A DNA stretch of 64,000 bases, taken from assembly GCF_003841465.1 (NCBI RefSeq), contig NZ_REFZ01000016.1, positions 1 through 64,000 on the forward strand. The letters run 5' to 3'. How positions within the stretch are numbered: position 1 is the first letter of the stretch; each line of letters starts with the position of its first letter. This document shows, one piece after another, positions 530 through 33,284 of this stretch. The notes under the pieces are model-generated. The model did no database searches. It was not told the origin of the DNA and saw only the letters and a list, made by a program, of their open reading frames with translations. The translations under genes and the position numbers were made by a program. This DNA comes from Natrarchaeobius oligotrophus (lineage in GTDB: Archaea > Halobacteriota > Halobacteria > Halobacteriales > Natrialbaceae).

Positions 530-576
530 AAGCCTAGGCCGGGATTTGAACCCGGGCTCTCGTCCTTACCAAGGAC
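530..576 (-). repeat. Left attachment site (partial tRNA-Thr)
   Basis: These 47 bp are identical to 33212-33258. They cover the anticodon loop, the 3' side of the anticodon stem, the variable loop, T-arm, 3' acceptor strand and discriminator of tRNA-Thr. Identity stops after the sequence matching CCTTGGTAAGG of the anticodon arm, and the 5' half of a tRNA is absent, so this is an att remnant and not a gene. Confidence 0.93.
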
Positions 577-4287: not shown

Positions 4288-4713
4288 ATGGAGATCGGGC
4301 TCGTGAGCTGTACGAAGAGCAAGCGTGAGCAAGCCGCAAAGCCCGCTGACCTCTATATGCCGTCGACGTTCTTCAGCAAGGCGCGTGAGTACGTCGAAGC
4401 CAATCACGACCGCTGGTACATCCTCTCCGCGAAACACCACCTGCTCGATCCGTCAGGCCCGCCTATCGAGCCCTACGATGAAACGCTGACGGGTGCACCG
4501 GTTGCCCGGAAACGTGAGTGGGCTGAAACCGTGTACGGCCAACTCGAAGCGGAAGGCATAGTTGATGACGACAACCAACTCGTCTTTCACGCAGGACGCG
4601 ACTACTACAGCGAACTCATCCCATTGTTGGAGGATACACCGGTCGACGTTGAAACCCCGACTGACGGCCTCCAGTTCGGTGAGACGCTCGCGTGGTACAA
4701 CGAACATCTCTGA
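4288..4713 (+). CDS. DUF6884 family protein
   Basis: A 141-residue protein that I recognise as DUF6884. It has an N-terminal GLVSCTKSK strand-loop, an ADLYMPSTFFSKAREY helix, then the signature WYILSAKHHLLDP and EPYDETL. The family is widespread in archaea, phages and mobile elements and its biochemical activity is unsettled. The N-terminal SCTKSK loop recalls the domain found in archaeosine-synthesis proteins. It precedes a GIY-YIG gene by 41 nt on the same strand, so the two probably form an operon. A TGT/DpdA-like gene at the other end of the element raises the possibility of a base-modification role (inference). Confidence 0.75.
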   Translation: MEIGLVSCTKSKREQAAKPADLYMPSTFFSKAREYVEANHDRWYILSAKHHLLDPSGPPIEPYDETLTGAPVARKREWAETVYGQLEAEGIVDDDNQLVFHAGRDYYSELIPLLEDTPVDVETPTDGLQFGETLAWYNEHL

Positions 4714-4754
4714 GAACCCGGACGATTTTGTGCCCCAGCTTCGAACCAGGTGAT

Positions 4755-5465: not shown

Positions 5466-5517
5466 GCTAACTGTGATCTGGAGGATGCTCTGACCGTCGT
5501 AGTTTTCTCCGGGGTAG

Positions 5518-5535
5518 CTGTTGGCACGAACCGCG
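5518..5535 (+). repeat. Dispersed element repeat, copy 2
   Basis: CTGTTGGCACGAACCGCG lies in the 283-bp non-coding stretch after 5465. It is close to copy 1 but has one extra base before CCGCG. No gene is visible in the rest of this gap. Confidence 0.5.
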
Positions 5536-5808
5536 CAGAGATGTCTCTCAGTTTGTTGTGGATGGAGGATTGAAGATTAGGTCATTCAACCGGAGGCCGA
5601 CATACGCGATGAGCGCCAGGATGGTCGGGGGCGCTACGGCGACAGTTGCGAACACGACGCTGAGACAACCGGAAGTGAGTATTTCCTTTGCCAGTTTCCA
5701 GGAGTAGTTTCGCCGTCTTGGTATTGTAGCAATAGCTAATTCAAGAAGGTGGCCCTAGATGATTTCCCACCGCAGAAAATAACTGGTCCCCCAATTAACG
5801 TCTCTCCT

Positions 5809-7761: not shown

Positions 7762-7857
7762 GGCACGCACCTACCCCCTCGATTATAAGGCGCTTTATAA
7801 AACACGATTCACTAATTGGTATTACGCGATCATCGAAGATAGCTAAGACTGAACAGA

Positions 7858-8601
7858 TTAGATAGCCAGAGAGTTCCCGTTCACCCTGAGCCATTCACGG
7901 CGATCCTCGTAATCCGGGATGAGAGCACCAACCGTGTTCCAGAACGCGCCAGAGTGTTCATTGTGTACTGAATGAGCCAACTCATGAGCGATGACGTAAT
8001 CTTGGATTCGAACGGGTGCTCGAATCAACCGCCAGTTGAGGCGAACGGTTCCTCTGTCGTATTCACCCCACCGGCCATCGATCTCCCCGACCCACACTGG
8101 CACGGCGTCAAGCCCCAACCTCGACTCAAAACGTGACACTCGGTCCGGGAGTTCTTCCTCCGCACGCTCAATAAACCAGTCGACGACCGCTTGGTGCTTT
8201 CGGCGAACGCTCACATCGTCTACATCCCCGTCGAACCGATGGACGCGAAGGGTGAACGTCTGCTCGTCAAACGATAACCTTGGTTCTGGGACATCTGCCT
8301 CAACAGCCTTCAATGGATACTGTCGCCCCCGATACTGGAGTTTCTCCCCGCTCATGTACTCCTTCGGATACGGCGGCCCTTCTTGCTCTTTGAGTCCGTA
8401 GAGTTTCTGAAGCAGCCACTCTTGGCGAGATTCAAGCACGTCCTCAACATCACCTACTGTCGCGGTCATCGGGGCTGTAACGGTCAACTCCAAGGACTTG
8501 TCGATTGACAAACCTATTGTCTCCCGATTTTCGGACCAATCGACCGTGTAGGGCACGACCGTCTGGCCGATATGATGCCGGCGCTGTAGGCGTTCGCTCA
8601 T
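7858..8601 (-). CDS. YgjP-like (M48/WLM-type) zinc metallopeptidase linked to type I R-M
   Basis: A 247-residue protein of the COG1451 type. The zinc motif HELAH lies at about residue 208 (IAHELAHSVHNEHS), with WGEYDRGTVRLNWRL shortly before, as in YgjP/SprT-like proteins. Its start overlaps the stop of hsdR by 4 nt, so it is the last gene of the hsdM-hsdS-hsdR operon. Such metallopeptidases often accompany type I restriction operons and may tune the restriction subunit by proteolysis. That role is suggested by context only. Confidence 0.85.
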   Translation of the reverse strand: MSERLQRRHHIGQTVVPYTVDWSENRETIGLSIDKSLELTVTAPMTATVGDVEDVLESRQEWLLQKLYGLKEQEGPPYPKEYMSGEKLQYRGRQYPLKAVEADVPEPRLSFDEQTFTLRVHRFDGDVDDVSVRRKHQAVVDWFIERAEEELPDRVSRFESRLGLDAVPVWVGEIDGRWGEYDRGTVRLNWRLIRAPVRIQDYVIAHELAHSVHNEHSGAFWNTVGALIPDYEDRREWLRVNGNSLAI

Positions 8602-11558
8602 TGGTAGTGATTCCGGGCCAGTTCGATAACGCGGTTGGTTAGCTCTTTCCGTTCATCACCCGAAATGTCGATTTCAGAGCGATACAACTCTCCTGTCACC
8701 TCCTTCCGCATCCGGTTCTGTAACTGTGTCTTCTCTTTCCATTCCACCTTGGTCACAAACTGCTCAACAGTCCCGACCAAATCAGCGGTGAGTTCGATGA
8801 GATTTTCCTCGCCAGCATCGTGCTCGTCCAGTACGTCCTCAACGGCGTGGTAGAACGAGAGATCGGTCTCGTCCCGGAGCCCTTTGTTCCGCGCCTGCTT
8901 GTCGCGGGAGCGAATCTCGTCCATCAGTGCCCGAAGCTCCTCAATGGTTTCACGCTCGTTGTATCGCCCTTCCCGGTACTTTTCAATGAGCTCTTCGAGC
9001 CGATCTCTGAGAGAACCGTACTGCACTGGATCTTCGTCGAATCGAACGTTGAGCTCGTGCTTGATTGCATTTTGCATCTCACTCGCCCGAGCTTCGTCGC
9101 TTTCTAAGCCTTCAAGTTTCGCGTCGTACTCGACTTCCTCCATAATCGAGACGGGTTCATCGTTCAGGACCTCGATGCCCCGAGACGTGATGTGGTCCTG
9201 AATCAACTCACGGACCTTTGCTCCCGCTCCTTCGAGGTTCATCGTCTCATCGCGGTACCGCTCCTTCGCCTTCCCGTAGATCGTGCTGAGCCGCTCCAGA
9301 TCCTCCCGGTAGGGGTTCGCCATCGGATCAGGGAGGACGACGTCCATCAGCTGTGAGAACCGCTTGAACGCGTTCTTGAACTCGATTCGGCGGTCGTCAG
9401 GTTCGAGCGACTGAACGCACTGCTCCACATCATCGAGATCGTCGAAGAACGAGACCGCTTTGCTGTGTGCCGCCTCAAGATCGGGCTGTTTGTCCTCGAC
9501 CGGCACCATCGCCCGCTCGACGTCCTTCGAGCTGAACATCGCGAGCGCCTCCTTCAACTCGTCCGAGACACCGTAGTAGTCGATGATGAGGCCATGGGTC
9601 TTCTCCTCGAACGGCCGGTTCACGCGGGCGATCGCCTGCAACAGGCTGTGCTCACGTAGCGGCTTATCGAGGTACATCACCTGAGCCACCGGCGCGTCGA
9701 AGCCTGTCAGGAGCATGTCACAGACGATGAGCAGCTCGACCTCGCCGTTCGGATCGATGAACGATTCCTTGTACTGGCTCTTCTCGGAGTCGCTGGGAGT
9801 CCACTTCTTGATGTGCTCAGGGTCGTTGTGCCCCTCAGAGACTATGACTCGTGACTCCGGGCCGTTCAGGTTGTCGAGGGTCTCTTTGTACCGAATCGCC
9901 GCCTCCTTGCTTGTAGTGACGACCATACCCTTGAACGGCTCAGGTACGTCGTTCTCGTAGTGTTCGATGATGTCCAGTGCGACCCGGTCGATGCGAGGTT
10001 GGGCCTCTGCGAGATCTTGCGTGCGGGCGTATCGCTTCTGGATCTCCGCTTTCTCCTCGTCGGTCTTGTCCGAGAAGATGCGATCGAACAGGCGGTCAAG
10101 CGTCTCACCTTCGAGATGGATGTCTGCAAGACGGCCCTGATACAGGATCTCGACCGTCGCGCCGTCCTCCAGCGACTGATCGATCGTGTACGTGTCGATG
10201 TAGTTCCCGAACGTCCGGCGGGTGTTGCGCTCGTCCTTCTCGATGGGCGTCCCAGTGAATCCCACGTAGAAGGCATTAGGAAGCGCCGTCCGCATGTTGT
10301 TCGCGAGCTCCTTATCCTGCGTCCGGTGGGCCTCGTCGGCCATCACGTAGACGTTCTCGTTCCGGGAGAGCACCGGGAAGTCCTCTTCGTCGTCCGTGGT
10401 CTGGAATTTGTGAATCAGCGTCGTGATCGTCTCGCCCGCGTCGTACGAGAGTCGGTCGCGGAGATCCTCGATGCTCTCGGCCTTTTTCGGATTGGGGAAG
10501 CCGCAGCGTTCGAACGTCGCATGTATCTGGTCGTTGAGTGCCCGGCGATCCGTAACCAACAGGAGTGTTGGATCGTCCTCGTTCCGGCGGAGCTTCAGCG
10601 CGAGAAAGAGCATTGTGAGCGACTTGCCCGAACCCTGGGTGTGCCAGACGACACCGCCCTGTGCCTCGCGCCGACCGCGTTTGTCGATTCGTTCGAGCGC
10701 CTTCCGAACAGCCCGGTACTGCTGATACCGAGCGACCATTTTGATCGCGCCGCTCTGTCGGTTCTCGAACACCGTGAAGTGCCGTAGCTGGTCGAGCAGG
10801 CGCGAGGGTTCAAACAGTGCATACAGCATCCGGTACTGATCCGGGAGGTAGCCGTCGAGGTCGAACAGCTCGATGAGTTCGTCGTCCTCTAGCGGATAGA
10901 CGTCTCGCCAGGGCTTGTACTGGTCTTTCGGCGTTCCGTACGTACCCATGACCGCGCCTTCCATCCAGGCGGCGACCGAGAACTGGTTGTATCGGAACAG
11001 CTCCTCGGCTCCCTCAGACTCACCGTCGCGTTCGTTCTGGTACCGGGTGAGCTGATCGAGCGCCTCCGAACGCGGCTCTGGGATCTGGGGACTCTTGCAC
11101 TCGACGACGCCGAGCGGGATGCCGTTGACGAACAGCACGATGTCGGGCTTGACGACCTCGACCGGCCCTGCAACACGGAACTGGTTGAGCGCGAAGAAGT
11201 CGTTGTTCTCGGGGTTCTCGTAGTCGATGTACTGAACTGTTTGGTGCTGCTTCCCGTGACCTCGATCCTGCTCGACGGAGATGTGTCGGACGAGCTTTTC
11301 ATGGATCTGCTCGTTCTCGTCCATCGTGCTCGTCCCGGCGACCTGTGTGATCTCGCGGACGGCCTTGTTCAGATTGTTCTCGTTGAGCCACGGGTTCAGG
11401 CGCTCAACTGCATTGCGAAGACGCGGTTTGAGTACAGCCGAGGACTCCGTCTCCCGAGGATCGCGCCAAGTGGACCGTTGCTGGTCGACGACCTCCCAAC
11501 CGAGTTGCTGGAGTGCGCCAAGGGCGGGCCGTTCGGACTCGGCGTACTCGTCAGGCAT
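8598..11558 (-). CDS. hsdR: Type I restriction enzyme, restriction/translocase subunit
   Basis: A 986-residue HsdR of normal length. The N-terminal nuclease shows VKPDIVLFV and GVVECKSPQ (about 138-157), the PD-(D/E)XK site. The SF2 motor follows with Walker A QGSGKS (about 307), DEAH as ADEAHRTQ (about 414), FTGTPIEKD (about 440) and QAIARVNRPF (about 655). The C-terminal 300 residues are helical and should contact the methylase. It starts 2 nt after the hsdS stop. With HsdM and HsdS it cuts DNA lacking the host methylation pattern after ATP-driven translocation. All motor and nuclease motifs look intact. Confidence 0.95.
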   Translation of the reverse strand: MPDEYAESERPALGALQQLGWEVVDQQRSTWRDPRETESSAVLKPRLRNAVERLNPWLNENNLNKAVREITQVAGTSTMDENEQIHEKLVRHISVEQDRGHGKQHQTVQYIDYENPENNDFFALNQFRVAGPVEVVKPDIVLFVNGIPLGVVECKSPQIPEPRSEALDQLTRYQNERDGESEGAEELFRYNQFSVAAWMEGAVMGTYGTPKDQYKPWRDVYPLEDDELIELFDLDGYLPDQYRMLYALFEPSRLLDQLRHFTVFENRQSGAIKMVARYQQYRAVRKALERIDKRGRREAQGGVVWHTQGSGKSLTMLFLALKLRRNEDDPTLLLVTDRRALNDQIHATFERCGFPNPKKAESIEDLRDRLSYDAGETITTLIHKFQTTDDEEDFPVLSRNENVYVMADEAHRTQDKELANNMRTALPNAFYVGFTGTPIEKDERNTRRTFGNYIDTYTIDQSLEDGATVEILYQGRLADIHLEGETLDRLFDRIFSDKTDEEKAEIQKRYARTQDLAEAQPRIDRVALDIIEHYENDVPEPFKGMVVTTSKEAAIRYKETLDNLNGPESRVIVSEGHNDPEHIKKWTPSDSEKSQYKESFIDPNGEVELLIVCDMLLTGFDAPVAQVMYLDKPLREHSLLQAIARVNRPFEEKTHGLIIDYYGVSDELKEALAMFSSKDVERAMVPVEDKQPDLEAAHSKAVSFFDDLDDVEQCVQSLEPDDRRIEFKNAFKRFSQLMDVVLPDPMANPYREDLERLSTIYGKAKERYRDETMNLEGAGAKVRELIQDHITSRGIEVLNDEPVSIMEEVEYDAKLEGLESDEARASEMQNAIKHELNVRFDEDPVQYGSLRDRLEELIEKYREGRYNERETIEELRALMDEIRSRDKQARNKGLRDETDLSFYHAVEDVLDEHDAGEENLIELTADLVGTVEQFVTKVEWKEKTQLQNRMRKEVTGELYRSEIDISGDERKELTNRVIELARNHYQ

Positions 11559-11560
11559 GA

Positions 11561-12883
11561 TTAGTCGACGGAGACGCGGACTTTGCCGGTGAGGAGGTCC
11601 TGCAGTAGACCTCGTTTGAGGTCTTGGAGGTGCTGTTTGTTTTCACGTTCAATTTCAATTTCTCTCTCCACTGTCGAAAGCACCTCCGAAATACGATCTT
11701 GCTCCGAAATCGGTGGGCATATGATTGGAATCTCTCGCAACTCCCCGATATTTAGTGAGGCACGAGTCGAGCCTGTACTGAAGACATCGATCAAATCCTG
11801 GTAAATTTTGGTGGAAAGACAGTATTTCAACCATCTCGCATCAAGGTCAGTGGTTGGAGTAACTCGTGCCAAATCACGAGAGATATTCGCTTCTCCTATT
11901 TCCTCATTCAATTGAACAATATTGCCGACGGTTCCCTTTACAGAAACGAGTACTTCTCCCCCTTGGAGCTGACTTCGGGAATATTCTTCGTGGAGATCAG
12001 GTGTGATTTTATGAATCGACTCTCTTTGTATCTCTCCTGTTTCGTCTACGTCTTCGATATTGAGTAGGGGGATCCCATCTTCATCATGTTTGCCTGGTTG
12101 GACAACGCCATAGCAAATGGGATAATCATCCTGATTTAGATCATCAAGATCGGATATCTCCCAATGTTCGGGAATCTGAACCTGAAATGGACCGAGTTGT
12201 GTCTCCTTCCGGCCACTATTAGGAATTAGCTCATCAAACAAATCCTGTAGAAGACCATCTCTAAGTGCTTTGGTTTCTTTAATGATCTCGTCTGTCTGCT
12301 GTATTTGCTCGTCGACCGTCGAGAGGATGTCAGCGATGCGGCGCTGTTCGGGAAGCGGCGGGAGTGGAACCTGTATTCCGCCTTTGAACACGTCGCTCGG
12401 AACCCGTTGTCGGCCGGTAGATCCCTCCATGAGGGAAATAGTGACTGAACGAAACTCGGGTAAGTTCGAGAGATAGTAGACAAACCGCTCGTCGGTTACA
12501 CCATCCCGGGGATGGAATACAAGAAACTCCGTAGAACCGGAGCCAACCTCCGTACCCAGATCTTCTATGAACGCAATCTTCCCGTTTTCAGTACACGGTG
12601 TGATTTTGGCGTAGACAGTATCTCCGTTCTTGAACCACGTCGTCGTACAGTCGTCTTTCTCCCGCTGAGTCCAGTATTCGATGGTCTGCTTTTCTTCATC
12701 AACAGCGTCCATTGGGAGGTAATCGAACGGGCCGTTATCGGGTTTCTCGTATTTCGGATTGAGCTCTATCGCCTCGTCGAAAGGCACGTTGTCCCACTCA
12801 TCCGGTATGGGAATCTCACGAGGACCGAGTTTGACGGTCTTGTAGCCTTCCCGGAGATCAGACTGTTCCAAGGCTTCACTCAT
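11561..12883 (-). CDS. hsdS: Type I restriction enzyme, specificity subunit
   Basis: A 440-residue HsdS with two target-recognition domains, each followed by a conserved helix. The first half ends in PLPPLPEQRRIADILSTVDEQI (about 175-196) and the second in CPPISEQDRISEVLSTVEREI (about 395-415). This two-fold repeat is diagnostic. Its start overlaps hsdM by 4 nt. Base usage in the recognition domains (11640-12300) is more A/T-rich than in hsdM and hsdR, as expected for a part exchanged by recombination. It determines the split target sequence, which cannot be read from the gene. Confidence 0.95.
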   Translation of the reverse strand: MSEALEQSDLREGYKTVKLGPREIPIPDEWDNVPFDEAIELNPKYEKPDNGPFDYLPMDAVDEEKQTIEYWTQREKDDCTTTWFKNGDTVYAKITPCTENGKIAFIEDLGTEVGSGSTEFLVFHPRDGVTDERFVYYLSNLPEFRSVTISLMEGSTGRQRVPSDVFKGGIQVPLPPLPEQRRIADILSTVDEQIQQTDEIIKETKALRDGLLQDLFDELIPNSGRKETQLGPFQVQIPEHWEISDLDDLNQDDYPICYGVVQPGKHDEDGIPLLNIEDVDETGEIQRESIHKITPDLHEEYSRSQLQGGEVLVSVKGTVGNIVQLNEEIGEANISRDLARVTPTTDLDARWLKYCLSTKIYQDLIDVFSTGSTRASLNIGELREIPIICPPISEQDRISEVLSTVEREIEIERENKQHLQDLKRGLLQDLLTGKVRVSVD

Positions 12884-14442
12884 CGGTACTCTAACTCCTC
12901 CATGTACTGCTGCAGTTCATCGTCCGTCTTCCGACGCCTCTCGGCCAGCCGATCCAACTCCTCTAACTTCGCGCTTACGTCGATCGGCTCCTCAGGCTCG
13001 GTCGTGTCGACGTAGCGCGGCACGTTCAGGTTCCAGTCGTTCTCCTCGATCTCCTCCAGCTCGACGAGCCGACTGTGATGATCTTCCTCGCGTCCCGTCT
13101 GGAACGTGTCGGCAAGGTACTCGACGCCCTCGTCCGTCAGTTGATTTTGATTCGAGAGTTCCTCGAATACTTGCACGCCGGACTCTCGAAGCGTCTGATC
13201 CTCGGCGTAGATGAACTGAACCTTGCTCTCGCGTTCCTCGGGCTTGTCCTTATTCAGAATGAGGATACAGCCCGGTGACGAGGTGTTGTAGAATAGGTTC
13301 TCCGGGAGTGCAATCACAGCCTCGATTAGATCGTCTTCCAGAATCGGCTTGCGAATCTTTTTCTCGGACCGCGAACGGAACAGGACGCCGTTGTCCATGA
13401 CGACGCCCGCCTTTCCGGTCTCGTTGAGCGAGGCGATCATGAGCTGAATCCACGCCCAGTCGCCACGATTCGACGGCGGGAGCCCGTATGGGAAGCGGTT
13501 GTACGGCTCGTTGTCCTCTACCCAGTCCTTGTTCCACTCCTTCTGGTTCCACATCGGGTTCGCGATGACCCGGTCAAAGACCTCCAGTTCATCGTGCTTG
13601 GTGACGCGCTTGGGGTCGGTGATGGTGTCGCCCTTCTCGATCTTCGCGTCGTAGAGCTCGTGGAGAAGGACGTTCATCTGACCGATGGCCCACGTGTTCA
13701 GGTTCTTCTCCTGGCCGTACAGCGAGATGTCTGTCATATCGCCGCCCGATTCACGGATGTGCTCGGCGGAGTAGATGAGCATCCCACCGGAGCCACAGCA
13801 GGGGTCATAGACGCGGTGGCCCGGCTCCGGATTCACGCACTTGACGATGAGACGGACGACCTCGCGCGGCGTGTAGAACTCGCCGCCCTTCTTGCCAGCA
13901 TCGTCGGCGAACTCGCGGATGAGGTATTCGTAGGCTCGTCCGAAGATGTCGGGGTCTTCGAGATCCTCGTTCCGATAGCGGTGCTTCGAGAAGTGCGAGA
14001 CGAGATCGGAGAGCAGTGAGTCGGGCAACCGCTCTTTGTCGTTAAAATCGACCGTAGTGAGTACGCGGTCGGCAATGGGATCGTTTTCATCTTCGACCGC
14101 CGCGAGCGCCTTGTTCAGCGCCGCACCAACGTCGGTCTCCTGTGCCTTGATGTGATCCCACCGAGCGCGTTCTGGTATCCAGAACTCTTCGTGGAGGTCT
14201 CGGTCGTCCCTGGCGGTCTCTACTGGAATCCCGAGTTCCTCGGCGACTTCTTCGGTCTCCTCCTCGAAGCGGTCGTTGGCCCGTTTGAGGAACAGCAGCC
14301 CGAAGATGTAGTTCTTGTAATCCGCCGAGTCGATGCTTCCCCGAAGTTTGTCCGCAGCCGCCCACAGATGTTTTTCGAGTGTAGGAAGTGTAAGTAGATC
14401 CGGTTCCGTTCCAGGTAGCGTAGCCTGGTCCTTTTCAGCCAT
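12880..14442 (-). CDS. hsdM: Type I restriction enzyme, N6-adenine methylase subunit
   Basis: A 520-residue HsdM of usual length. It has the helical N-terminus WAAADKLRGSIDSADYKNYI, the FYTPREVVRLIV segment (about 188), motif I DPCCGSGGML (about 213) and motif IV as NPMW (about 296). The last is a variant of NPPF/Y seen in other HsdM subgroups. It is the first gene of hsdM-hsdS-hsdR-metallopeptidase. A TATA-like sequence about 27 bp before the ATG implies leaderless transcription. It shares family but little close similarity with the orphan methylase at 5809, so the two are not a recent duplication. Confidence 0.95.
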   Translation of the reverse strand: MAEKDQATLPGTEPDLLTLPTLEKHLWAAADKLRGSIDSADYKNYIFGLLFLKRANDRFEEETEEVAEELGIPVETARDDRDLHEEFWIPERARWDHIKAQETDVGAALNKALAAVEDENDPIADRVLTTVDFNDKERLPDSLLSDLVSHFSKHRYRNEDLEDPDIFGRAYEYLIREFADDAGKKGGEFYTPREVVRLIVKCVNPEPGHRVYDPCCGSGGMLIYSAEHIRESGGDMTDISLYGQEKNLNTWAIGQMNVLLHELYDAKIEKGDTITDPKRVTKHDELEVFDRVIANPMWNQKEWNKDWVEDNEPYNRFPYGLPPSNRGDWAWIQLMIASLNETGKAGVVMDNGVLFRSRSEKKIRKPILEDDLIEAVIALPENLFYNTSSPGCILILNKDKPEERESKVQFIYAEDQTLRESGVQVFEELSNQNQLTDEGVEYLADTFQTGREEDHHSRLVELEEIEENDWNLNVPRYVDTTEPEEPIDVSAKLEELDRLAERRRKTDDELQQYMEELEYR

Positions 14443-14464
14443 AGCTCAAGGATTATCTGCAGAC

Positions 14465-14473
14465 ATTATAATA
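14465..14473 (-). promoter_or_regulatory. TATA-box candidate for the hsdMSR operon
   Basis: TATTATAAT on the minus strand is centred 27 bp upstream of the hsdM ATG, the spacing expected for a leaderless haloarchaeal promoter. Confidence 0.6.
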
Positions 14474-14891
14474 GCAACGTCACGATCATAGACGGGTAGG
14501 AGCTGTTCGACAATACCGTCAAGACCGTTGCCTGTACCATTATTTCCGGGGCCGCCGTTTCTGTTGGCATTGAGGCGACGGGATTGAAACCCGGTTCCGA
14601 GCCCTGGGTTGTAGATGCCGCGCACATACATATGGGGCCACACATACGTACTGGTCGTCTCGGAAAGGCGGTAGCGGCCGAGTTCAACTCGACCGGCACG
14701 TGACCTCTGATCCGACTGACGCGGTTGCCCTAACGCCGGACAGCCCGATCACGTGCATCCCACCCGGAGCGCATCGTGACGACATACAGCCATCCGATGC
14801 CTTTCTACCCATCCTACAGCCCAACCACCACCCCGACCATTTTGCTCCCACAGATACGGCCGTCGTCGCCGTTTTTTGTTGGCTGATACAG
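14474..14891. other. Non-coding gap between hsdM and the NucS-like gene
   Basis: No gene with haloarchaeal composition is visible on either strand. The gap contains one dispersed-repeat copy at 14561 and the hsdM promoter side. Confidence 0.45.
14561..14578 (+). repeat. Dispersed element repeat, copy 3
   Basis: CTGTTGGCATTGAGGCGA has the full CTGTTGGCA-T-TG core and a degenerate CGCG end. Confidence 0.45.
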
Positions 14892-15989
14892 CTACTCGAA
14901 CAGCTCGTGACCGGCGTACTCTTCAATAGCACGCGGATGCAGGAATTGTACCAGGTCGACCATCTCTTGGGCTAACTCGCGGACTTCGATGTCGTTTCGA
15001 TCCACTTTGACGTCTCTATGTAGGACACCCATCGATCGGCTGGGATCGTCTATCATATCATATCCTTCCAACTCACCAATATTTTCGGCAAGGAATCGGC
15101 GGAGCTCCTCGTGTTGGTTCGATTCTGCATCCCAGATGTTCACACGGAATCGTACCACACCCTCCTCTTCGATGAGCGGCTTCATCCCATATTTCAGTGG
15201 TTCCGGGTGATCTGGGTGATTCGAACCAGTGCCCATCCCCCGCTTTTCGGTCGCCCTCGCTATCTGTTCTTTATCTTCTATATGTAGGTCATCCTTCAAT
15301 TGTGGGTAAATGTGGTCTCGTACGGCGATAATGAGATCAGAGTAGTCTTCGGCGTTGCTTGTGCTCGACACTGTACTGGTTGGCTCTTCACTCAGCGGCC
15401 GCCGGATGTTCTCGGTCAAGAGGAGTTCCATTTCACCCTCCGAGTAGACACTGTACTCGACACAGATCACGTCAATGTCGTGCTCTCGAAGAAAGTCGGC
15501 CATATTCAGTGAAACGTCGCGGAACTCCGTGCCCACCAAGATCAGCCGCTGGTTGTCGTTGAAATTATCTTCGTCGGCTGTGTCGTCCAAGCCGAAATAC
15601 GTTCGATGTCGATCACGGAGTGTTAGATCACCATCAAGTGGCTGTTCTGGCCCGTACTCACGTACGAACTCGCGATACCGCTGGTTCAGCTGTTCATAAT
15701 CTTCTTTCCGGATACCGCTGGCGTATTCAAGAGCTTGAGCGGCGATCTCGCGTGGGGCCCTCCCACGTTTGAGCTCGACGATTACGGTGTTCCCCTCCTC
15801 ATCAAGGCCCAAGATGTCGAAGATACCGCCCTCGTCTGGGGTCCCCTGACGCCCGATATACATCACGTCAACACCACCGATCGTTGCCCCATCCGTGCGT
15901 ATGAGCCGGTTTTCGAGGTTAGCCTCCTTGTCAAACTCTGACTCTGGGAGTCGTTTGAGATTCTCCTGTTCGACCATGTAGACTTCCAT
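14892..15989 (-). CDS. NucS/DUF91-type PD-(D/E)XK nuclease-like protein
   Basis: A 365-residue protein if started at ATG 15989 (VEQENLKRLPES follows); an upstream ATG at 16031 is less likely. Residues about 25-75 show GGIFDILGLDEEGNTVIVELKRG, the D...ExK active site of the DUF91/NucS C-terminal nuclease. It is followed by AAQALEYASGI, the helix typical of that family. The C-terminal half (about 200-365) is a separate alpha/beta domain I do not recognise. It is transcribed divergently from a small winged-helix regulator with shared operator-like sequence between them. It probably cuts branched or mismatched DNA or serves in defence (inference). Confidence 0.75.
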   Translation of the reverse strand: MEVYMVEQENLKRLPESEFDKEANLENRLIRTDGATIGGVDVMYIGRQGTPDEGGIFDILGLDEEGNTVIVELKRGRAPREIAAQALEYASGIRKEDYEQLNQRYREFVREYGPEQPLDGDLTLRDRHRTYFGLDDTADEDNFNDNQRLILVGTEFRDVSLNMADFLREHDIDVICVEYSVYSEGEMELLLTENIRRPLSEEPTSTVSSTSNAEDYSDLIIAVRDHIYPQLKDDLHIEDKEQIARATEKRGMGTGSNHPDHPEPLKYGMKPLIEEEGVVRFRVNIWDAESNQHEELRRFLAENIGELEGYDMIDDPSRSMGVLHRDVKVDRNDIEVRELAQEMVDLVQFLHPRAIEEYAGHELFE

Positions 15990-16042
15990 ACACTGCGCGT
16001 CTAACTCCACACATATCAATCTAATTAACAAGTTGTTATTTT

Positions 16043-16088
16043 AGACCGGTCTATCAAGTTGCTTATATAACATACCCCAGACCGGCCA
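16043..16088 (+). promoter_or_regulatory. Operator pair flanking a TATA box, divergent promoter region
   Basis: The perfect 10-bp palindrome AGACCGGTCT (16043-16052) is followed 36 bp later by AGACCGGCC (16079-16087). Between them lies TATATAA (16064-16070) at the right distance for the regulator gene at 16103. Two like sites around a TATA box, beside a winged-helix gene, suggest autorepression and joint control of the divergent nuclease. Confidence 0.6.
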
Positions 16089-16102
16089 AAAATAGTCGGG
16101 TG

Positions 16103-16366
16103 ATGGCACTGGTTGATGAGCGGAAAGTCGATGTCTTGGTCTATCTTCACGAGAACGGACCTGACACCGGATACTCAATCGTGGCGAGTGATGACGTTGA
16201 GTACACCAAGGGATACATCTACGATGTTCTTGGCGAGCTGGAAGACGAAGGGATGATCGAAGTTGCTGACCGCGAATCCAAAGGACGTAAACGGGTCACC
16301 TACCAGCTCACGGAGAATGGAACACTTCTGCTACGGGCACTTGATCGGGTCTCGTCCGAGGGGTGA
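16103..16366 (+). CDS. PadR/MarR-like winged-helix transcriptional regulator
   Basis: An 87-residue winged-helix protein that starts at ATG 16103; a GTG one codon upstream is possible. VLVYLHENGPDTGYSIVAS leads into YIYDVLGELEDEGMIEVA (recognition helix and following strand) and ends with GRKRVTYQLTENG, the wing. The arrangement is that of PadR-like and other haloarchaeal one-domain repressors. It likely binds the AGACCGGTCT sites just upstream and controls itself and the divergent NucS-like gene. Confidence 0.8.
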   Translation: MALVDERKVDVLVYLHENGPDTGYSIVASDDVEYTKGYIYDVLGELEDEGMIEVADRESKGRKRVTYQLTENGTLLLRALDRVSSEG

Positions 16367-16379
16367 GAGAACCCCACAG

Positions 16380-16598
16380 CTATAGACGGTCGTACAGAAC
16401 GTTCGTGATCTTGCCTTCCAGCGGAAGTAGAATCCCCAGCGACTCCACATCGTCGTCGTCATACGACAGCTGAACCGCCTGGGCCACACGGTCGTGCATC
16501 GCCACCAATTGTTCTGTCTCGATCTCACGTAGGTCAGTGGGCATCTCGTCGCCGTAAACATTGGTCACTACCTCGTGCTCGCGATCGGTCAGCTCCAT
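16380..16598 (-). CDS. Small hypothetical protein
   Basis: A 72-residue acidic, mostly helical protein that I do not recognise. The start is chosen at ATG 16598, behind GGGGTGA; an upstream extension would run into the previous gene. It is the last of nine tightly packed genes running from 19056 to here, 2 nt after the preceding stop. Confidence 0.55.
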   Translation of the reverse strand: MELTDREHEVVTNVYGDEMPTDLREIETEQLVAMHDRVAQAVQLSYDDDDVESLGILLPLEGKITNVLYDRL

Positions 16599-16600
16599 AC

Positions 16601-16831
16601 TCACCCCTCTGATAGTGGTCGGAGATCTCGCCATCGGAAGTGTTCAGTCTCTCCGTTCTCGAACTCGACGCCGAACAGGTACGAGTCGCGCACGTCGCCG
16701 GTAACCGCGTCTGCGTCGTCCTCGATCAGATCGATAACCTCGCCCGTTCGGTCGTGATACAGCTCAAAGTCGGGATCACCTTTGTCCGGGATGTCGATGC
16801 GGACCCGATCACCGACCTCGAATCGTCTCAT
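16601..16831 (-). CDS. Small SH3/KOW-like protein
   Basis: A 76-residue protein beginning RRFEVGDRVRIDIPDKGDPD and continuing with HDRTGEVI and LFGVEFENG. The pattern of short strands with Gly-Asp-x-Val turns resembles SH3-like or KOW-like barrels. Its function is unknown, and nucleic-acid or protein binding is a guess. It is the eighth gene of the small-protein operon. Confidence 0.55.
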   Translation of the reverse strand: MRRFEVGDRVRIDIPDKGDPDFELYHDRTGEVIDLIEDDADAVTGDVRDSYLFGVEFENGETEHFRWRDLRPLSEG

Positions 16832-16864
16832 CGACGTAACCATCACAGGGTTGGTACCTGTTCG

Positions 16865-17089
16865 TTACGGTCCAGCCAACCGCTCGCCCATCTCACGAGC
16901 GCGTTCGTCTATCTCGTCCCGATGCTCGATTTCAGCCAGCGACACCCGACCCGCCATCTGTTCCCAGCCACACCGGTCGTTACATTCGTAGTAGACCTTC
17001 CAACTCGACGCTTCTTCCTTCGTGCCGTAGACCAGTGACGCACCGCAGTCAGGACATGTCGCCGTGTCGTGTTTCTTGAACGTAATCAT
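16865..17089 (-). CDS. Zinc-ribbon protein
   Basis: A 74-residue protein with CPDC (about 13-16) and CNDRCGW (about 36-42), a four-cysteine zinc ribbon, then a charged helix. It overlaps the upstream gene by 4 nt. Tiny zinc-finger proteins are abundant in haloarchaeal plasmids and viruses, and this one has no assigned role. Confidence 0.6.
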   Translation of the reverse strand: MITFKKHDTATCPDCGASLVYGTKEEASSWKVYYECNDRCGWEQMAGRVSLAEIEHRDEIDERAREMGERLAGP

Positions 17090-17370
17090 TGCTCTCTCGG
17101 GTAGCTCCGGTCTTTCACGCGGACGCCAGCAAGTTGATGACTCCAGAACACGGCCTCGACGATCACTTCATCGGCACCTTCCGTACCAGGGTCAACCGCC
17201 TCTGGGCAACACTTCATGCACCAAGTCCGCCTCGGTGTCCAGCCACCTTTGTTGTACCAGGTGGCGTACATCGAGACCTTGTCGCCGTGCTGTATCCGAC
17301 GATTGCACGAATCGCAGATATTCCCGCTACGGATACCGTTGAGCGATGCTGCGGGATCTGGGAGGGTCAT
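17086..17370 (-). CDS. Putative zinc-binding protein with CxxC motifs
   Basis: A 94-residue protein. ICDSCNRRI (about 18-26) and WCMKCCPEA (about 50-58) form two CxxC knuckles. The layout resembles small treble-clef or HNH-like zinc proteins but lacks an obvious catalytic His-Asn pair. It overlaps its upstream and downstream neighbours by 4 nt each. Confidence 0.55.
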   Translation of the reverse strand: MTLPDPAASLNGIRSGNICDSCNRRIQHGDKVSMYATWYNKGGWTPRRTWCMKCCPEAVDPGTEGADEVIVEAVFWSHQLAGVRVKDRSYPREQ

Positions 17371-17555
17371 TCGTCGTATCCCCCCAGTTCGATCCCGAGC
17401 GCATCAGCTGTGTTCTCGAAATTTTCCTCGCTCACTTTGATCGCGGTCTCGACATACTCCTCGCGCCCCATCTTCTCACCGAGGGATCGGAAGACCGGAT
17501 ACCATTTGCGGAACCACCACACCATGAGGCGGATGAACCGATCAAGCATCGGCAC
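17367..17555 (-). CDS. Small hypothetical protein with hydrophobic N-terminus
   Basis: A 62-residue protein. Residues 4-22 (LDRFIRLMVWWFRKWYPVF) are aromatic and amphipathic and could lie on a membrane; the rest is an acidic helix. It overlaps the DUF6166-type gene upstream by 14 nt and the next gene by 4 nt. No family is recognised. Confidence 0.5.
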   Translation of the reverse strand: MPMLDRFIRLMVWWFRKWYPVFRSLGEKMGREEYVETAIKVSEENFENTADALGIELGGYDE

Positions 17556-28401: not shown

Positions 28402-29751
28402 ATGGTACTCGCTGACGATCAGCAACTCGTTCGAGCATGGGACGCGTTCGAGGATAACGACTACCGGATGAAAGACAGCCAAGGGGAGGTTGTGACGATG
28501 GAAGAAGCCGACCAACGGCGAGAAGATCGGCTCCCTGTTCTTCGTGAACTCATCGATGATTTTCTGGCTGGCGATCTTCCATTGAGTGAGTTTAAGTCAG
28601 AGATCGATGGCCAGAACAAGCGGTTCCCCTACTGGGGGTTCAAAGGGATGAACGGAATGATGTTCTTCAATATGGTCTACAGCTCGGCTGGGGAGGAACG
28701 CCAAGACGAGCTGGCCGAGCTTTTGCATAACCTCATCCAGCCACCCGCTGACCAAACCGAAGCGAAGGAAAAAATACGTTCGCTCGAAGGCTTTGTTGAA
28801 CGACTCCGAAACGAGGTTGATGACCTTCGTAAGGCACCGCGCCCTGGATCGATACCCTACTTCCTCTCCTACTTTTGGCAAGTCCACGCCCCTGACGAGT
28901 ATCCGATCTACTACACCTCGATGGTGAACGCGTTGTCCGACTTGGCGATCTGGGAACCGGAAGACGATCTCGCAGATAGCTATGCTTCTTTCTGGGAGCT
29001 TAACGAGGAACTCCGCAAAGCATTAGGAGAGCACACCGGTCGAGACATACATCTCTGGACTGTCGAGCACGTGTTCTGGTACTGGCAACAGCGCGACGAG
29101 TTCGACGACGAGCCCGAACCAGCTGGAGGAACGACACAGATGACTACCCTCCCCGACAGCTACATCCCGCCGATCGTCTCCATTCTCCCGGATCTGGCCG
29201 AAAACACCGATGAGATTCAAAGCGTCGTCGACGGGATAGGCCACTCGGTAGAAACGCTGTTCGAGAATCGGTTGGCGCGTGCGTTCCGGATGGTAGGGTT
29301 CGAAGTTGACGAGATGGGGCAAGGGAGTGGTCGTAATCCGGATGGCATCGCGAAGGACCATATGCACAACTACGCAATCATCTACGACGCGAAATCCCGT
29401 CGAAACGGCTACAGTATGGGAACGGGCGATGAACGGCAGTTTCAGGATTACATCAACCGTGAGGTTCCCTCGCTCCGAGCCCAAGGGTTCCGAAACATCT
29501 ACTTTGCCGTCATCTCCGGAGACTTCACGGATGATGAGCGTGACGCGATTCGGACACTCAAAATCAGCACCGACATCCAGGAAGTCCGTCTGATCGAAGT
29601 CGAGGCGCTACTGATCCTTCTGGAGAACCGACTTCGTGATCCAAGCTTTGGACTCGGCCCTGGCGATCTCGGCGGTCCTGGTGTTCAGGACTTCTTCGCA
29701 GAGAGCGGGGTTCTTACGGCTGCTGATGTCCGTGAAGAGCTCGGAGTATAG
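28402..29751 (+). CDS. FokI-type cleavage-domain nuclease with an N-terminal DNA-binding-like region
   Basis: A 449-residue protein. The C-terminal third contains GRNPDGIAKD (about 312-321) and YAIIYDAKSRRNGYSMG (about 327-343), then ERQFQDYI. This closely follows the FokI cleavage domain (PDG..., VDTKAYSGGYN, MQRYV), the PD...DxK active site. The N-terminal half has FPYWGFKGMNG, PYFLSYFWQVHAPDEYPIYY and VEHVFWYWQQR, resembling recognition modules of McrB-like or type IIG proteins. No methylase partner is adjacent. It may therefore cut modified DNA, work with one of the element's methylases, or act on its own; the sequence cannot decide. Confidence 0.75.
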   Translation: MVLADDQQLVRAWDAFEDNDYRMKDSQGEVVTMEEADQRREDRLPVLRELIDDFLAGDLPLSEFKSEIDGQNKRFPYWGFKGMNGMMFFNMVYSSAGEERQDELAELLHNLIQPPADQTEAKEKIRSLEGFVERLRNEVDDLRKAPRPGSIPYFLSYFWQVHAPDEYPIYYTSMVNALSDLAIWEPEDDLADSYASFWELNEELRKALGEHTGRDIHLWTVEHVFWYWQQRDEFDDEPEPAGGTTQMTTLPDSYIPPIVSILPDLAENTDEIQSVVDGIGHSVETLFENRLARAFRMVGFEVDEMGQGSGRNPDGIAKDHMHNYAIIYDAKSRRNGYSMGTGDERQFQDYINREVPSLRAQGFRNIYFAVISGDFTDDERDAIRTLKISTDIQEVRLIEVEALLILLENRLRDPSFGLGPGDLGGPGVQDFFAESGVLTAADVREELGV

Positions 29752-29854: not shown

Positions 29855-30331
29855 ATGCCGGGGACATCTACAGACAAAATAACGACAGAGAGAATAATTG
29901 AACGTGAATCCGAACCAGGCCCGCCAGCAACGGAGTATGAATCAAAAATGGTGATGCTCCGAGCCGAACGCGGTGACAATATACAGATTGTCGATGTAGT
30001 TACGCGTCTCTCCCAGAACGCCGACATCCCGTCAGAGACAACGGTTATCAAGCGGACGACCCCGTATTTTGGACCTAAGCTCGTGCTGGCCGCTGACGAA
30101 GAGAGCTATCTACTGACGGCACCAGGACCGGATACACAGCTTCTACTATGGGTTGGCAACTATTTGGATGACGGCGAACGATACGGGTGGGACAAACTCG
30201 CTGAGGTTACCGCACAGTTCGCTGAGGATCAACCACAGTACGATCTCTGTCCAGAATGTGGTCAACCGATGCAAACGATAGAACACGAACGCAAAGCGGC
30301 TGTCGGACGGTGTCCCGGTCCAGAACTTTAG
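29855..30331 (+). CDS. Hypothetical protein with C-terminal zinc knuckle
   Basis: A 158-residue protein. A central beta-rich region (about 50-105) is followed by CPECGQPM (about 132-139) and a later GRCPGPEL at the C-terminus, giving a probable three- or four-ligand zinc knuckle. A TATA-like ATTTTAAC about 30 bp upstream suggests a leaderless transcript. It runs toward the TGT-like gene, with only 6 bp between the stops. Unrecognised family. Confidence 0.55.
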   Translation: MPGTSTDKITTERIIERESEPGPPATEYESKMVMLRAERGDNIQIVDVVTRLSQNADIPSETTVIKRTTPYFGPKLVLAADEESYLLTAPGPDTQLLLWVGNYLDDGERYGWDKLAEVTAQFAEDQPQYDLCPECGQPMQTIEHERKAAVGRCPGPEL

Positions 30332-30337: not shown

Positions 30338-31558
30338 TTAGAAGTCGCTGACCCCCGATTGAAACCGTTCTTCGTCGAAGCCGTCTCGTGCTTGTTCGTA
30401 TGCCGACTGCGTCTGGTCAGTCACACCGAGTTTCTCAATAACTTGTGGATACGCCTGGTCGGATGCCAGTGCGTCTCGAAGGTCTTTGGCCGCTAACGCC
30501 TTCTGCTCGCCGTTGACCAGCTTCTGTAAGCGGTATTTGGCGTTTGTAGGCGAGCGGCGAACGCGAGTGGCTACACCTTCTGCGTCAAAGGCGGTCTTGT
30601 CGGGGAACACGTCCGAGAGGTCACTCACTGGGATGTCACGGTAGACCCAGTCTGTCCTGTCGAACAAGCGGAACTCGGGTTCGCCGTCCTCTCCTTGTTC
30701 TGCTTCCATCTTTTCGAACGCCTCTTCAGGCATTCGGGGTGACACATGGCATCCCCCGATGATGTCGAAACCAAGACCCAGGGAAGAGATGTCGGAAGCG
30801 GGTCGTACACCGAGTGCCTGCTGTCTCGTTCCCGGTGAGGGGTTGATAGCGTAGAACAGTGTGTGTTCTTCGATACCTCGGTTAGCTATACTCTGCATCA
30901 ACGGCTCGACCATCGCCAGCTGGGTTCCCGTCGTCACCTTACACCGGTCGAAATCGAAGGCATAGGTCGTCACGTCGTGAGCTTCGTAGACACCCAACAA
31001 GTCGTCGATGAACTCCCACCCCAATCGTGGAATAAGGCCCATAACGGGTACCTCGGGATGGCGCTCTTGGACCTGGTTTAGGAAAGCGACGACGCTCTTT
31101 TTGAATGAGCGATAGGACGGGTCGCTGAGATCGTCTTCGACGTTCCTCACCAGCTTCGGCATCAACGGGACGGTGATTATGTCCGAGTAGGCGGCGTGGA
31201 TGTCCGCCAGATACCGTGCATGAGCCACGCCAAGAGTGCTCGTTTCGGTGTATTTCGTGAAGGTGATCTTCAACGAGTCATCTGTAGCACTCGAAAACTG
31301 GCTTTCGAGGTCGGAGTTGATCTGGCTTCCATCCGGGTCGCGCATCGCCTCATCGAGATCGTCCCCTCCCACGGTTCGATACAGCTCACTCACACCATCA
31401 CTGTCAGGGTGGAACTCCTCGTGTTCACGGAGTTTGCCAGGGATCGTAGCTGCGGTAGGGGTCTGCACCTTCTTACCCCCTACTCGAACGTTTCGTAGCG
31501 GGAAGATGCCGTTCTGGTCGAAGTCATTGACGGTGGTGATTTTCAGGTCCGTCATCAT
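30338..31558 (-). CDS. TGT/DpdA-like putative base-exchange enzyme (TIM barrel)
   Basis: A 406-residue protein from ATG 31558; the second Met codon at 31555 is equally likely. The N-terminal FPLRNVRVGGKKVQTPTAAT (about 14-33) recalls tRNA-guanine transglycosylase starts (R-x-V...V-x-TP). Barrel-like strands follow: ITVPLMPK, VPVMGLIPR, TTYAFDFD, TLFYAIN. ALGVRPASDISSLGLGFDII (about 250-270) parallels the GVG-PEDL-AV-LGVDMFDC stretch of TGT. The second catalytic Asp position is altered, so it would be a divergent member, perhaps like the phage DNA-modifying DpdA. The last ~100 residues are helical. The call is motif-based and moderate. Confidence 0.45.
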   Translation of the reverse strand: MMTDLKITTVNDFDQNGIFPLRNVRVGGKKVQTPTAATIPGKLREHEEFHPDSDGVSELYRTVGGDDLDEAMRDPDGSQINSDLESQFSSATDDSLKITFTKYTETSTLGVAHARYLADIHAAYSDIITVPLMPKLVRNVEDDLSDPSYRSFKKSVVAFLNQVQERHPEVPVMGLIPRLGWEFIDDLLGVYEAHDVTTYAFDFDRCKVTTGTQLAMVEPLMQSIANRGIEEHTLFYAINPSPGTRQQALGVRPASDISSLGLGFDIIGGCHVSPRMPEEAFEKMEAEQGEDGEPEFRLFDRTDWVYRDIPVSDLSDVFPDKTAFDAEGVATRVRRSPTNAKYRLQKLVNGEQKALAAKDLRDALASDQAYPQVIEKLGVTDQTQSAYEQARDGFDEERFQSGVSDF

Positions 31559-31858: not shown

Positions 31859-33058
31859 CTACCAGATCTGTTCGGCGGCGTCGTTACGGGTTTCAGCGTC
31901 GGAGTGAAGATATTTCATCGTCGTTGTGACCGACTTGTGACGGAGCTGCTCTTTCGCGTGGTGTGGGCCGATGTGGTTCGCCCAGTAGGTCGCAACCCCA
32001 TGCCGGATCGAGTACCAGGTAATATCCTTGTGATCAGGGATAGGAAGGTCGCCCTGCTCAACGAGGCGGCTCAGTAGATAGTTACACGACTTGGAACTGT
32101 ACTTGCTTCCTTGCTTCGTAAGCCACAGTTCGTCTCGACCGTTGTACTTGTCGTAGGTTGCTCGTTCCTCTAACCATCGTTTGAGGACCCTTGACGTGCG
32201 CTTCTTGATGGAACAGTTCCAGTGCGCCTCGTTCTTCGTGGACTCGTCCTTGGGTATGTTGAGCTCGTTGTTCTCAAGATTGACCCAGTCCGTGGTGGCT
32301 CGCCCCACTTCGATGGGACGGAGTCCAGTATCCAGCGTCACAGCGATTATCGACGGCTCCTTCCACGAGTTCGCCTGTTCGAAGTGTTCGGGACCAACCT
32401 CCGACTTGGGCACGCCGAGACGCTGTGAAACATGGGTTTTCAACCGATCACGCTCCTCGGCGGACATATTGCTGTTGTAGCTCTTGACCGAGTTGTATTC
32501 CAATGCCGCCTGATAGAGCGGCTTGAACGCGGTTCTACGGAGATAATCCCGTTCGTCACCAGTCGCCTGACTCAGTTCGGGTTTCGGCTCCCAGTCGTAG
32601 TCGGTTCCGTGGATATGGTTCTGGTACTTGAACAGTCGCTGAACCGCTTTCCCGTAGTGAATCACGCTGGAATCGGCCATCCCGTCTGAGCGATTGAGGA
32701 GACGGATGAAGCGGTCAGCGTGATCCGGTGTGAAGTCTGTCGTGTAGGCGTCTTCGTCCTCCCAAAGCCATCGGAAGACGATTTCCAGCTTGTAGTGTGT
32801 CGACTGAAGAGTGCTCTCTGCGAGGCCCTGCCCCTTCTCTGGGTGCTTACCGTATGTGGCGAGCCACGAGAGAAGATCTTTTTTGAAGTCCCGGTAGTCG
32901 TCGACCATATTGAGCCCGTAGTTTTCGAGGTCCTCGCGTGAGCGTTCACTAGCAAGGGGAAAGTCGAACTCAACTTGTTCTGGAGCCGGGGGAAGACCAT
33001 CCCGCGGAGTGCCGTCCCCGGAGGGGAGATTGTCGAGCGGATCGGGTTGGTTGGTCAT
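31859..33058 (-). CDS. int: Tyrosine-recombinase integrase of the element
   Basis: A 399-residue integrase started at ATG 33058. A SAM-like N-terminal core-binding region (about 60-170) precedes the catalytic domain: LDTGLRPIEVGR with the first Arg (about 257), WYSIRHGVATYW (about 352) with the second Arg, QLRHKSVTTTMKYLH (about 372-386) with His and the nucleophilic Tyr. The box-II His position is occupied by Tyr, a tolerated variant in archaeal integrases. It lies 154 bp from the tRNA-Thr target on the same strand, as usual for tRNA-integrating elements. Confidence 0.93.
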   Translation of the reverse strand: MTNQPDPLDNLPSGDGTPRDGLPPAPEQVEFDFPLASERSREDLENYGLNMVDDYRDFKKDLLSWLATYGKHPEKGQGLAESTLQSTHYKLEIVFRWLWEDEDAYTTDFTPDHADRFIRLLNRSDGMADSSVIHYGKAVQRLFKYQNHIHGTDYDWEPKPELSQATGDERDYLRRTAFKPLYQAALEYNSVKSYNSNMSAEERDRLKTHVSQRLGVPKSEVGPEHFEQANSWKEPSIIAVTLDTGLRPIEVGRATTDWVNLENNELNIPKDESTKNEAHWNCSIKKRTSRVLKRWLEERATYDKYNGRDELWLTKQGSKYSSKSCNYLLSRLVEQGDLPIPDHKDITWYSIRHGVATYWANHIGPHHAKEQLRHKSVTTTMKYLHSDAETRNDAAEQIW

Positions 33059-33211
33059 CCGCGCGCACCCCGTTTTGTTTGTGTGCCATGACACTTTTCA
33101 GAATCGCAAGACTGCGCGGCTATCGGGTTGTAGTTTTTTCGGACGTTATTGGACATCGTTGGTCTCTCCTGAGAAGGGCGAAATCAGTCGAGAGAGACGC
33201 TAAGGCCGCTG

Positions 33212-33258
33212 AAGCCTAGGCCGGGATTTGAACCCGGGCTCTCGTCCTTACCAAGGAC
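33212..33258 (-). repeat. Right attachment site within tRNA-Thr
   Basis: The 47 bp identical to 530-576 form the 3' portion of the intact tRNA-Thr gene. Crossover occurred within this block, so the element supplies the present 3' half of the tRNA. Confidence 0.93.
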
Positions 33259-33284
33259 GCGCTTTACCGCTAAGCTACCCAGGC
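33213..33284 (-). tRNA. tRNA-Thr(GGT), integration target
   Basis: 72 nt. Acceptor GCCTGGG pairs with CCTAGGC. The anticodon arm is CGTCC-TTGGTAA-GGACG, anticodon GGT. The T-arm is CCGGG-TTCAAAT-CCCGG and the discriminator is T. The gene is intact although the integrated element ends inside it. Confidence 0.96.

Follow-up and report, generated by a model that had tools for sequence, protein, structure and literature searches.

Introduction

Why should a mobile element of a haloarchaeon carry a protein that resembles tRNA-guanine transglycosylase (TGT), and what could such a protein do there? The question is raised by an open reading frame, P0001, on the minus strand (30338..31555) of the window, by which we mean the whole 64,000-nucleotide stretch of Natrarchaeobius oligotrophus DNA analysed here. 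A preliminary description, made from the sequence alone, had taken the product for a TGT or DpdA-like enzyme that might, together with a DUF6884 protein of the same element, place 7-deazaguanine bases in DNA or tRNA. Our analysis indicates that P0001, 405 amino acids long and probably a divergent TGT-superfamily protein, represents an undescribed archaeal family, here called FAM, which would add a divergent branch to a known superfamily, in a setting where none was expected.

Results

The reading frame that the preliminary description placed here is genuine: it is conserved, with dN/dS values of 0.041 against the 90% identical copy of Halosimplex aquaticum, 0.058 against that of genome G384 and 0.051 against that of genome G237. 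Translation would begin at one of two adjacent ATG codons (31558 and 31555), the stop codon lies at 30338-30340, and both quoted motifs are found in the protein, LRNVRVGGKKVQTP at residues 20-33 and ALGVRPASDISSLGLGFDII at residues 247-266.

The hosts of FAM are haloarchaea and methanogens, and the family is sparsely spread among them. A single-sequence query recovered open-frame homologues in 12 of 293 genomes at the order level, while profile queries found FAM in 13 of 391 genomes of a second order-level draw, in 14 of 391 at the class level and in 20 of 392 at the phylum level, these draws overlapping one another. One plasmid record among 72,556 carries the gene (Haloarcula sp. JP-L23), and no relative was found among viral contigs queried with several different lead sequences or, by tblastn, among 50,697 phage records. 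Broken FAM genes are present at four loci (L120, 9343-10509; L041, 9875-10210; L042, 9704-10048; L126, 9853-10059), and such interrupted or fragmentary copies point to loss of FAM in some lineages.

Neither Pfam, PHROGs, NCBIfam nor PADLOC gave a match to P0001 at E<=10, and PADLOC searched with all 25 aligned family members gave one weak match only, to Cas5 (E 0.045). In the 25-row alignment, where identity to P0001 ranges from 18 to 88%, T32, P33, P130, Y190, N238, G262, D264 and N348 are identical in every row and E57, G173, P176, G267, H270 and P318 in 24 of the 25. Open-access literature on DUF6884, UPF0175, Hma, TGT and archaeal defence, 7-deazaguanine and Panacea contains, in the excerpts available, no description of the family.

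The window copy sits in an integrated element of about 32.7 kb, bounded by two exact copies of a 47-bp attachment repeat (530..576 at the far end, 33212..33258 at the tRNA) which is the 3' part of a tRNA-Thr (GGT) gene, the integration target (33213..33284, minus strand). A tyrosine integrase (31859..33094, minus strand; PF00589, E 1.4e-15) lies between the tRNA gene and P0001, and other FAM copies likewise belong to integrative elements or plasmids, which carry integrase and Orc1-like genes. The same element contains type I restriction-like genes HsdR, HsdS and HsdM (8598..14442, minus strand), identified by reading the sequence and located at least 16 kb from FAM; two HsdM-type methylase genes flank the HsdR- and HsdS-like genes, one at 5749-7761 on the plus strand with N6_Mtase and HsdM_N domains and one at 12880 on the minus strand. 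In the sister element of G237, HsdR and HsdM are 94-98% identical to those of the window and HsdS only 32%, which matches the expectation for exchanged specificity. A FokI-type nuclease-domain gene (28402..29751, plus strand; PF09254, E 3.6e-6) adjoins the pair formed by FAM and a zinc-ribbon gene, and it and a PD-(D/E)XK nuclease gene (PF14281, 26791-28236) directly precede that pair. In G237 the PD-(D/E)XK gene is absent and the FokI-type gene is reduced to a stretch of 55 amino acids; the FokI-type gene is a variable neighbour of FAM and not a conserved part.

Is the resemblance to TGT homology? We compared a 25-row FAM alignment by hhalign with a broad TGT set of 44 sequences, consisting of archaeal TGTs, the E. 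coli TGT and three haloarchaeal TGT-like groups. The two profiles align collinearly from end to end (FAM 3-403 against TGT 1-412) at 95-96% in global mode, so that the TGT likeness proposed from the sequence now stands as homology at the profile level; the individual values were 68% local and 94.6% global in one run and 61.9% and 96.1% in a second. Haloarchaeal FAM rows alone gave 90.8% global and methanogen rows alone 91.6%. A reversed TGT set, used as control, reached 1.2% local and 0.2% global. Moreover, 100 column shuffles gave local scores of 14.8 +/- 2.6 with a maximum of 22.7, against a real score of 44.1, and a global maximum of 9.2 against a real score of 50.9, while two TIM-barrel decoys, HMGL and DHPS, stayed at or below 0.2% with FAM and 0.4% with TGT.

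The score tracks the breadth of the TGT profile, ranging over seven template sets from 0.6 to 68% local and from 1.2 to 94.6% global. Given as local/global percentages, the core set of 31 sequences reached 4.1/4.9, core+680 20.4/63.0, core+420 0.6/1.2, core+344 11.2/10.4, 680+420 10.2/17.4, 680+420+344 7.6/6.1 and all groups together 68.0/94.6; two sets made of a single group each, x680 and x344, gave 2.8/0.1 and 0.3/0.0, and an earlier 'broad' set gave 38.2/79.3. These sets were assembled stepwise, with the scores known along the way. Early runs with a haloarchaea-only FAM alignment or with archaeal TGT alone gave 0.5-2.4% local, and we attach little weight to them because the same method then gave just 6.6% for a positive control, TGT against phage DpdA; once the broad set was used, this control reached 88%.

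When 861 non-family sequences were searched with the FAM profile by hmmsearch, TGTs took ranks 1-5 and then 7, 9, 14 and 16, an enrichment with a Mann-Whitney p of 1e-12 that ignores the kinship among the TGTs; in the best alignments viewed, the matched segment follows the barrel and N348 falls on the Asn of the TGT 'HN'. The PF01702 model matched none of the 25 FAM members at E<=1, and P0001 is absent from the matches of that model to its own genome at E<=10. Against the PDB, the best TGT found by HMMER was the archaeosine TGT 1iq8 with E 0.58, which is not significant alone and stands below the unrelated RNase TTHA0252 (E 0.16). Because narrower TGT profiles score much lower, we grade membership of FAM in the TGT superfamily as likely, short of proof, on this comparison of sequence profiles.

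If FAM derives from a TGT, does it keep the TGT active site? Across 12 hhalign runs N348 fell on the 'HN' Asn of TGT in all 12, and T32-P33 fell on the TGT 'TP' in all 9 runs that reach this region. The placement of the GxDxFD motif is less regular: it aligned with GFDIIG or GFDALG in 4 of the 12 runs and with an implausible stretch in 2, and was unaligned in 6. In the 4 plausible runs D264 matches the first Asp of GxDxFD, and the column of the nucleophile is occupied by the near-invariant Gly267. The base-binding Asp of the TGT DSGG motif, where it is aligned, falls mostly on residues 92-94 of FAM, which vary. D264 is the only invariant Asp of the family (25 of 25), with D125 being Asp in 22 of 25. 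Thus the two Asp positions on which a transglycosylase would depend are both lost, as far as an alignment of low confidence tells.

TGTs have a structural zinc site of the form C-x-C-x2-C...H, and this motif is present in the TGT sequences compared here. The 25-row FAM alignment contains no conserved Cys, and the zinc ligands of TGT are thus absent. Since both the conserved Asp pair and the zinc Cys are missing, FAM is, judged from its residues, not a standard transglycosylase. The polar residues E57 (24/25), N238, D264 and H270 (24/25), invariant or nearly so, hint at an active site peculiar to the family.

Structure models, based on two near-identical sequences (P0001 and the Halosimplex aquaticum copy), are too poor to decide the fold, with a pLDDT of 33 for the full 405 residues and a pLDDT of 46.7 and pTM of 0.48 for residues 88-300. 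Both low-confidence models have an alternating strand-helix core, and that of residues 88-300 has a barrel-like strand-helix order, its fold matches being a mixture of TIM barrels with Z values of 5-7. The top Foldseek matches are dehydroquinases, lyases and glycosidases; no canonical TGT chain is among the best 50 fold matches listed, and the presence of DpdA 7ui4 (Z 5.5, 170 aligned, rank 37) is compatible with a TGT fold and uninformative.

The reading of FAM as a DpdA or other base-inserting enzyme is not supported, in view of the apparent loss of the Asp pair and the lack of a DpdA profile match: P0001 is not listed for PF23859 (DpdA) at E<=10, and hhalign of FAM against 9 phage DpdA sequences gave 0.4-1.8%. 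The DUF6884 protein (4288..4713, plus strand; PF21818, E 8.6e-40) does lie between the attachment repeats, within the same element, as had been claimed. This protein also matches the PADLOC candidate defence model PDC-M57A (E 7.9e-31). The idea that it is a functional partner of FAM was reasonable in view of annotations in the literature: the available excerpts of PMC11888242 annotate DpdC proteins with DUF6884, those of PMC12839542 annotate them with PF03883, and those of PMC11701544 describe DUF6884 as a distant relative of YaaA (PF03883). However, DUF6884 accompanies FAM in just one of seven compared regions, the sister element of G237, whose FAM is 99% identical, and is absent near FAM in G384, H. 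aquaticum, G067, G199, G274 and JP-L23, over a span of about 9 kb on each side for H. aquaticum and roughly 10-40 kb a side elsewhere. This co-occurrence rules out DUF6884 as a conserved companion, whereas the zinc-ribbon gene adjoins FAM in all seven of the same regions.

Other haloarchaeal genes with TGT domains were also noticed. Proteins of 665 amino acids (L132, 1009-3003, minus strand, with relatives L133-L143) combine a TGT domain (PF01702, E 3.1e-27) with DUF5591 (E 1.8e-20), and in many of the same genomes (for example G026, G137 and G041) a second TGT-like gene, of 414-440 amino acids, lies about 2 kb away. These gene sets look like a better candidate than FAM for an archaeal 7-deazaguanine system acting on DNA or tRNA. 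A recurring family of 344 amino acids (L145-L161; PF01702, E 1.2e-28 for L145) has a TGT domain without the C-terminal domains of archaeosine TGT, L159 being a longer, ordinary TGT.

What, then, does accompany FAM? The window partner is a zinc-ribbon-like protein of 158 amino acids (29855..30331, plus strand) with a C-terminal C-x2-C..H..C pattern, encoded tail-to-tail with FAM such that 6 bp separate the two stop codons. We tallied partners at the level of open reading frames over 33 family loci. Each of the 30 with a FAM frame of at least 244 amino acids has one partner type, a zinc-ribbon gene in 13 and a UPF0175 gene in 17, with no locus having both or neither. The fragments L041, L042 and L126 were excluded, L126 still keeping its PIN gene, while L120 was counted although its FAM is interrupted; since W, L028, L001 and L030, L119 and L121, and L114 and L117 are near-duplicates, the independent cases are fewer than 30.

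In all 13 zinc-ribbon loci the stop codons of the two genes lie -4 to 30 bp apart. The zinc-ribbon protein is rare, occurring in 4 of 126 genomes, in three of them at the FAM gene; the fourth (G017) has a solitary copy with no FAM beside it (L225, G017:C19, 1393-1896, plus strand). Its invariant residues C132, C135, H144 and C153 suggest one metal site. Among the 17 UPF0175 loci, a PIN gene adjoins UPF0175 in 16, and in the remaining one, L033, a neighbouring gene gave a weak, sub-threshold hit to HEPN (E 0.0036). D5, E83 and D105 are conserved throughout the 11 aligned PIN rows, and E41 in almost every one. UPF0175 forms the C-terminal domain of a partner protein with an extra N-terminal region, and the member at L113 matches SocA_Panacea weakly (E 0.05).

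In a tree of the family, whose root is not fixed, all 14 haloarchaeal rows group together (100/99); inside this group the 11 zinc-partner rows form a clade (95/91) lying within UPF0175 rows. This monophyly fits a single partner swap.

In methanogens the genes are arranged as one operon in the order UPF0175, PIN, FAM, or with UPF0175 and PIN divergent from FAM, and a number of these cassettes lie in or beside defence genes. At L121 the order is hmaA (E 6.6e-194), UPF0175, PIN, FAM, hmaB (E 2.4e-132), a 138-aa open reading frame and hmaC (E 1.4e-111); the Hma operon there is intact (4714-17446), with the cassette between hmaA and hmaB. At L113 the genes beside FAM encode, by profile, an HmaB/DUF1156-type methylase and HmaC, and DUF1156-type sequence, as read from the sequence only, lies downstream at L114, L117 and L119. 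Type I restriction or specificity genes are near the cassette at L112, L122 and L123, and a DrmMI/type IIG-like gene is beside it at L116. Among the neighbours inspected at L115, L118, L120, L124 and L125, none was a defence gene of these kinds.

Discussion

How do these observations fit together? The explanation that best covers the whole, to which we give an even chance, is that FAM is a re-tooled TGT-fold protein common to all versions of a toxin-antitoxin-like conflict module, an accessory of archaeal defence loci. FAM would be a (beta/alpha) barrel with the N-terminal 'TP' hairpin and the C-terminal helical segment of TGT and without the Asp pair or the zinc ligands. From the tree, we infer that the ancestral module joined FAM to a PIN ribonuclease and a UPF0175/Panacea-like antitoxin, in or beside restriction-type defence operons, and that in the window's haloarchaeal clade both partners were replaced by the zinc-ribbon protein. 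The TGT fold may serve FAM for binding an RNA (tRNA) or a nucleobase. As a whole, the module may be a backup or abortive layer, in which the antitoxin would restrain the nuclease partner as long as no infection occurs and the main system is intact; control or activation of FAM would, in the window, have passed to the zinc-ribbon protein. Direct support exists for the family, the partner association, the methanogen defence context and a TGT-type homology at the profile level. Since neither UPF0175 nor PIN lies beside the window FAM, the toxin-antitoxin reading rests on the relatives.

With respect to function, our first choice would be backup or abortive action, probably directed at tRNA, and action on 7-deazaguanine viral DNA would be the bolder alternative. 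We prefer the former because the partners of the relatives are of ribonuclease and antitoxin types and because the loci that house them are adenine-methylating defence systems, a kind that has backup suicidal RNase modules according to the available excerpts of PMC12839542. More tentatively, the TGT-fold FAM could be an immune sensor or effector that, with a Panacea/UPF0175 antitoxin and PIN, guards methanogen restriction and Hma systems; haloarchaeal mobile elements would have swapped both partners for the zinc-ribbon protein, and FAM would recognise tRNA or 7-deazaguanine and trigger or perform the attack. We regard this fuller scenario as possible and somewhat doubtful.

Other explanations have to be weighed against the conflict module. 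The integrative elements and plasmids in which FAM occurs, with their integrases and Orc1-like genes, and the prediction of UPF0175-PIN pairs as type II toxin-antitoxin systems (PMC6929052, available excerpts) would suit a plain addiction or maintenance system in which FAM is a non-catalytic RNA-binding regulator, with no part in virus defence. This is unlikely, given that one methanogen cassette interrupts an Hma operon and others neighbour restriction genes, and that the window type has neither UPF0175 nor PIN. The idea that FAM is a putative sensor or glycosylase that recognises or removes 7-deazaguanine in viral DNA, leading to attack on the virus, draws on the TGT fold, on the possible active site formed by E57, N238, D264 and H270, on the defence loci and on the existence of haloviruses with such DNA (HVTV-1 DNA carries dPreQ1 according to the available part of PMC6884629); the ribonuclease-type partners in methanogens speak against it, and we judge it improbable.

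FAM might also be an active transglycosylase of the DpdA kind, placing preQ0 or archaeosine precursors from the host in the DNA of the element as a mark of self. This would agree with the superfamily homology, the TGT genes of the host genome, the appearance of DpdA 7ui4 among the listed fold matches and the presence in the element of DUF6884, the domain named for dpdC in the accessible text of PMC11888242. Yet the catalytic Asp pair is not conserved, no DpdA profile matches and DUF6884 is not a conserved companion; moreover, the available excerpts of PMC6884629 and PMC11888242 tie the DNA-modifying families to preQ0 genes or DpdB/C, a linkage not seen for FAM, DUF6884 being the part tested by profile. 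This makes base insertion quite improbable. Finally, FAM could be a TIM barrel unrelated to TGT, with the profile match a chance effect of common barrel features, as the weak single-sequence evidence, the dependence of the score on profile breadth and the top Foldseek matches might suggest. Against this stand the two real TIM-barrel families that score at most 0.4%, the value of about 91% global that each half of the family gives against TGT, and the matching places, at both ends of the protein, of the N-terminal TP and of N348 on 'HN'; we hold a chance match to be highly improbable.

It is instructive to set the conflict module beside known systems. FAM is like the TGT superfamily (PF01702, comprising archaeosine TGT and bacterial TGT, and also DpdA) in its full-length collinear alignment, in the N-terminal '..TP' hairpin, in the GxD motif of the last strand and in the C-terminal helical segment with the Asn of 'HN'. 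It is unlike that superfamily in matching neither PF01702 nor PF23859, in having no conserved catalytic Asp pair and no zinc ligands, and in its constant neighbours, which are toxin-antitoxin-like or zinc-ribbon genes. With UPF0175/DUF3368-PIN (VapBC-like) modules, the FAM loci of methanogens and some haloarchaea share the UPF0175 gene and a PIN protein with acidic residues; they differ in that FAM is always there as a third gene and in the extra N-terminal region of the UPF0175 protein, and the window type lacks both partners. Convergent gene pairs, moreover, are unusual for toxin-antitoxin systems.

A further comparison is with the backup suicidal effectors of BREX and DUF499/Hma-type systems in PMC12839542, which, in the excerpts available, are RNase-type accessory genes in or beside the core operon, as is the cassette at L121. 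The modules described in those excerpts are of OLD/TOPRIM, HEPN, PIN and Schlafen types, with TGT only in HerA-centred BRC systems, and a cassette of PIN, UPF0175 and a TGT-like protein is not seen among them.

If the proposed module is real, the TGT superfamily would gain a branch with a re-made active site, set in immunity instead of base insertion. The proposal would also put a name to an obligate pair of genes and a cassette of three, both amenable to tests in Haloferax and Methanosarcina. FAM would also bear on the response of the host to haloviruses with 7-deazaguanine DNA, such as HVTV-1 as characterised in the available part of PMC6884629.
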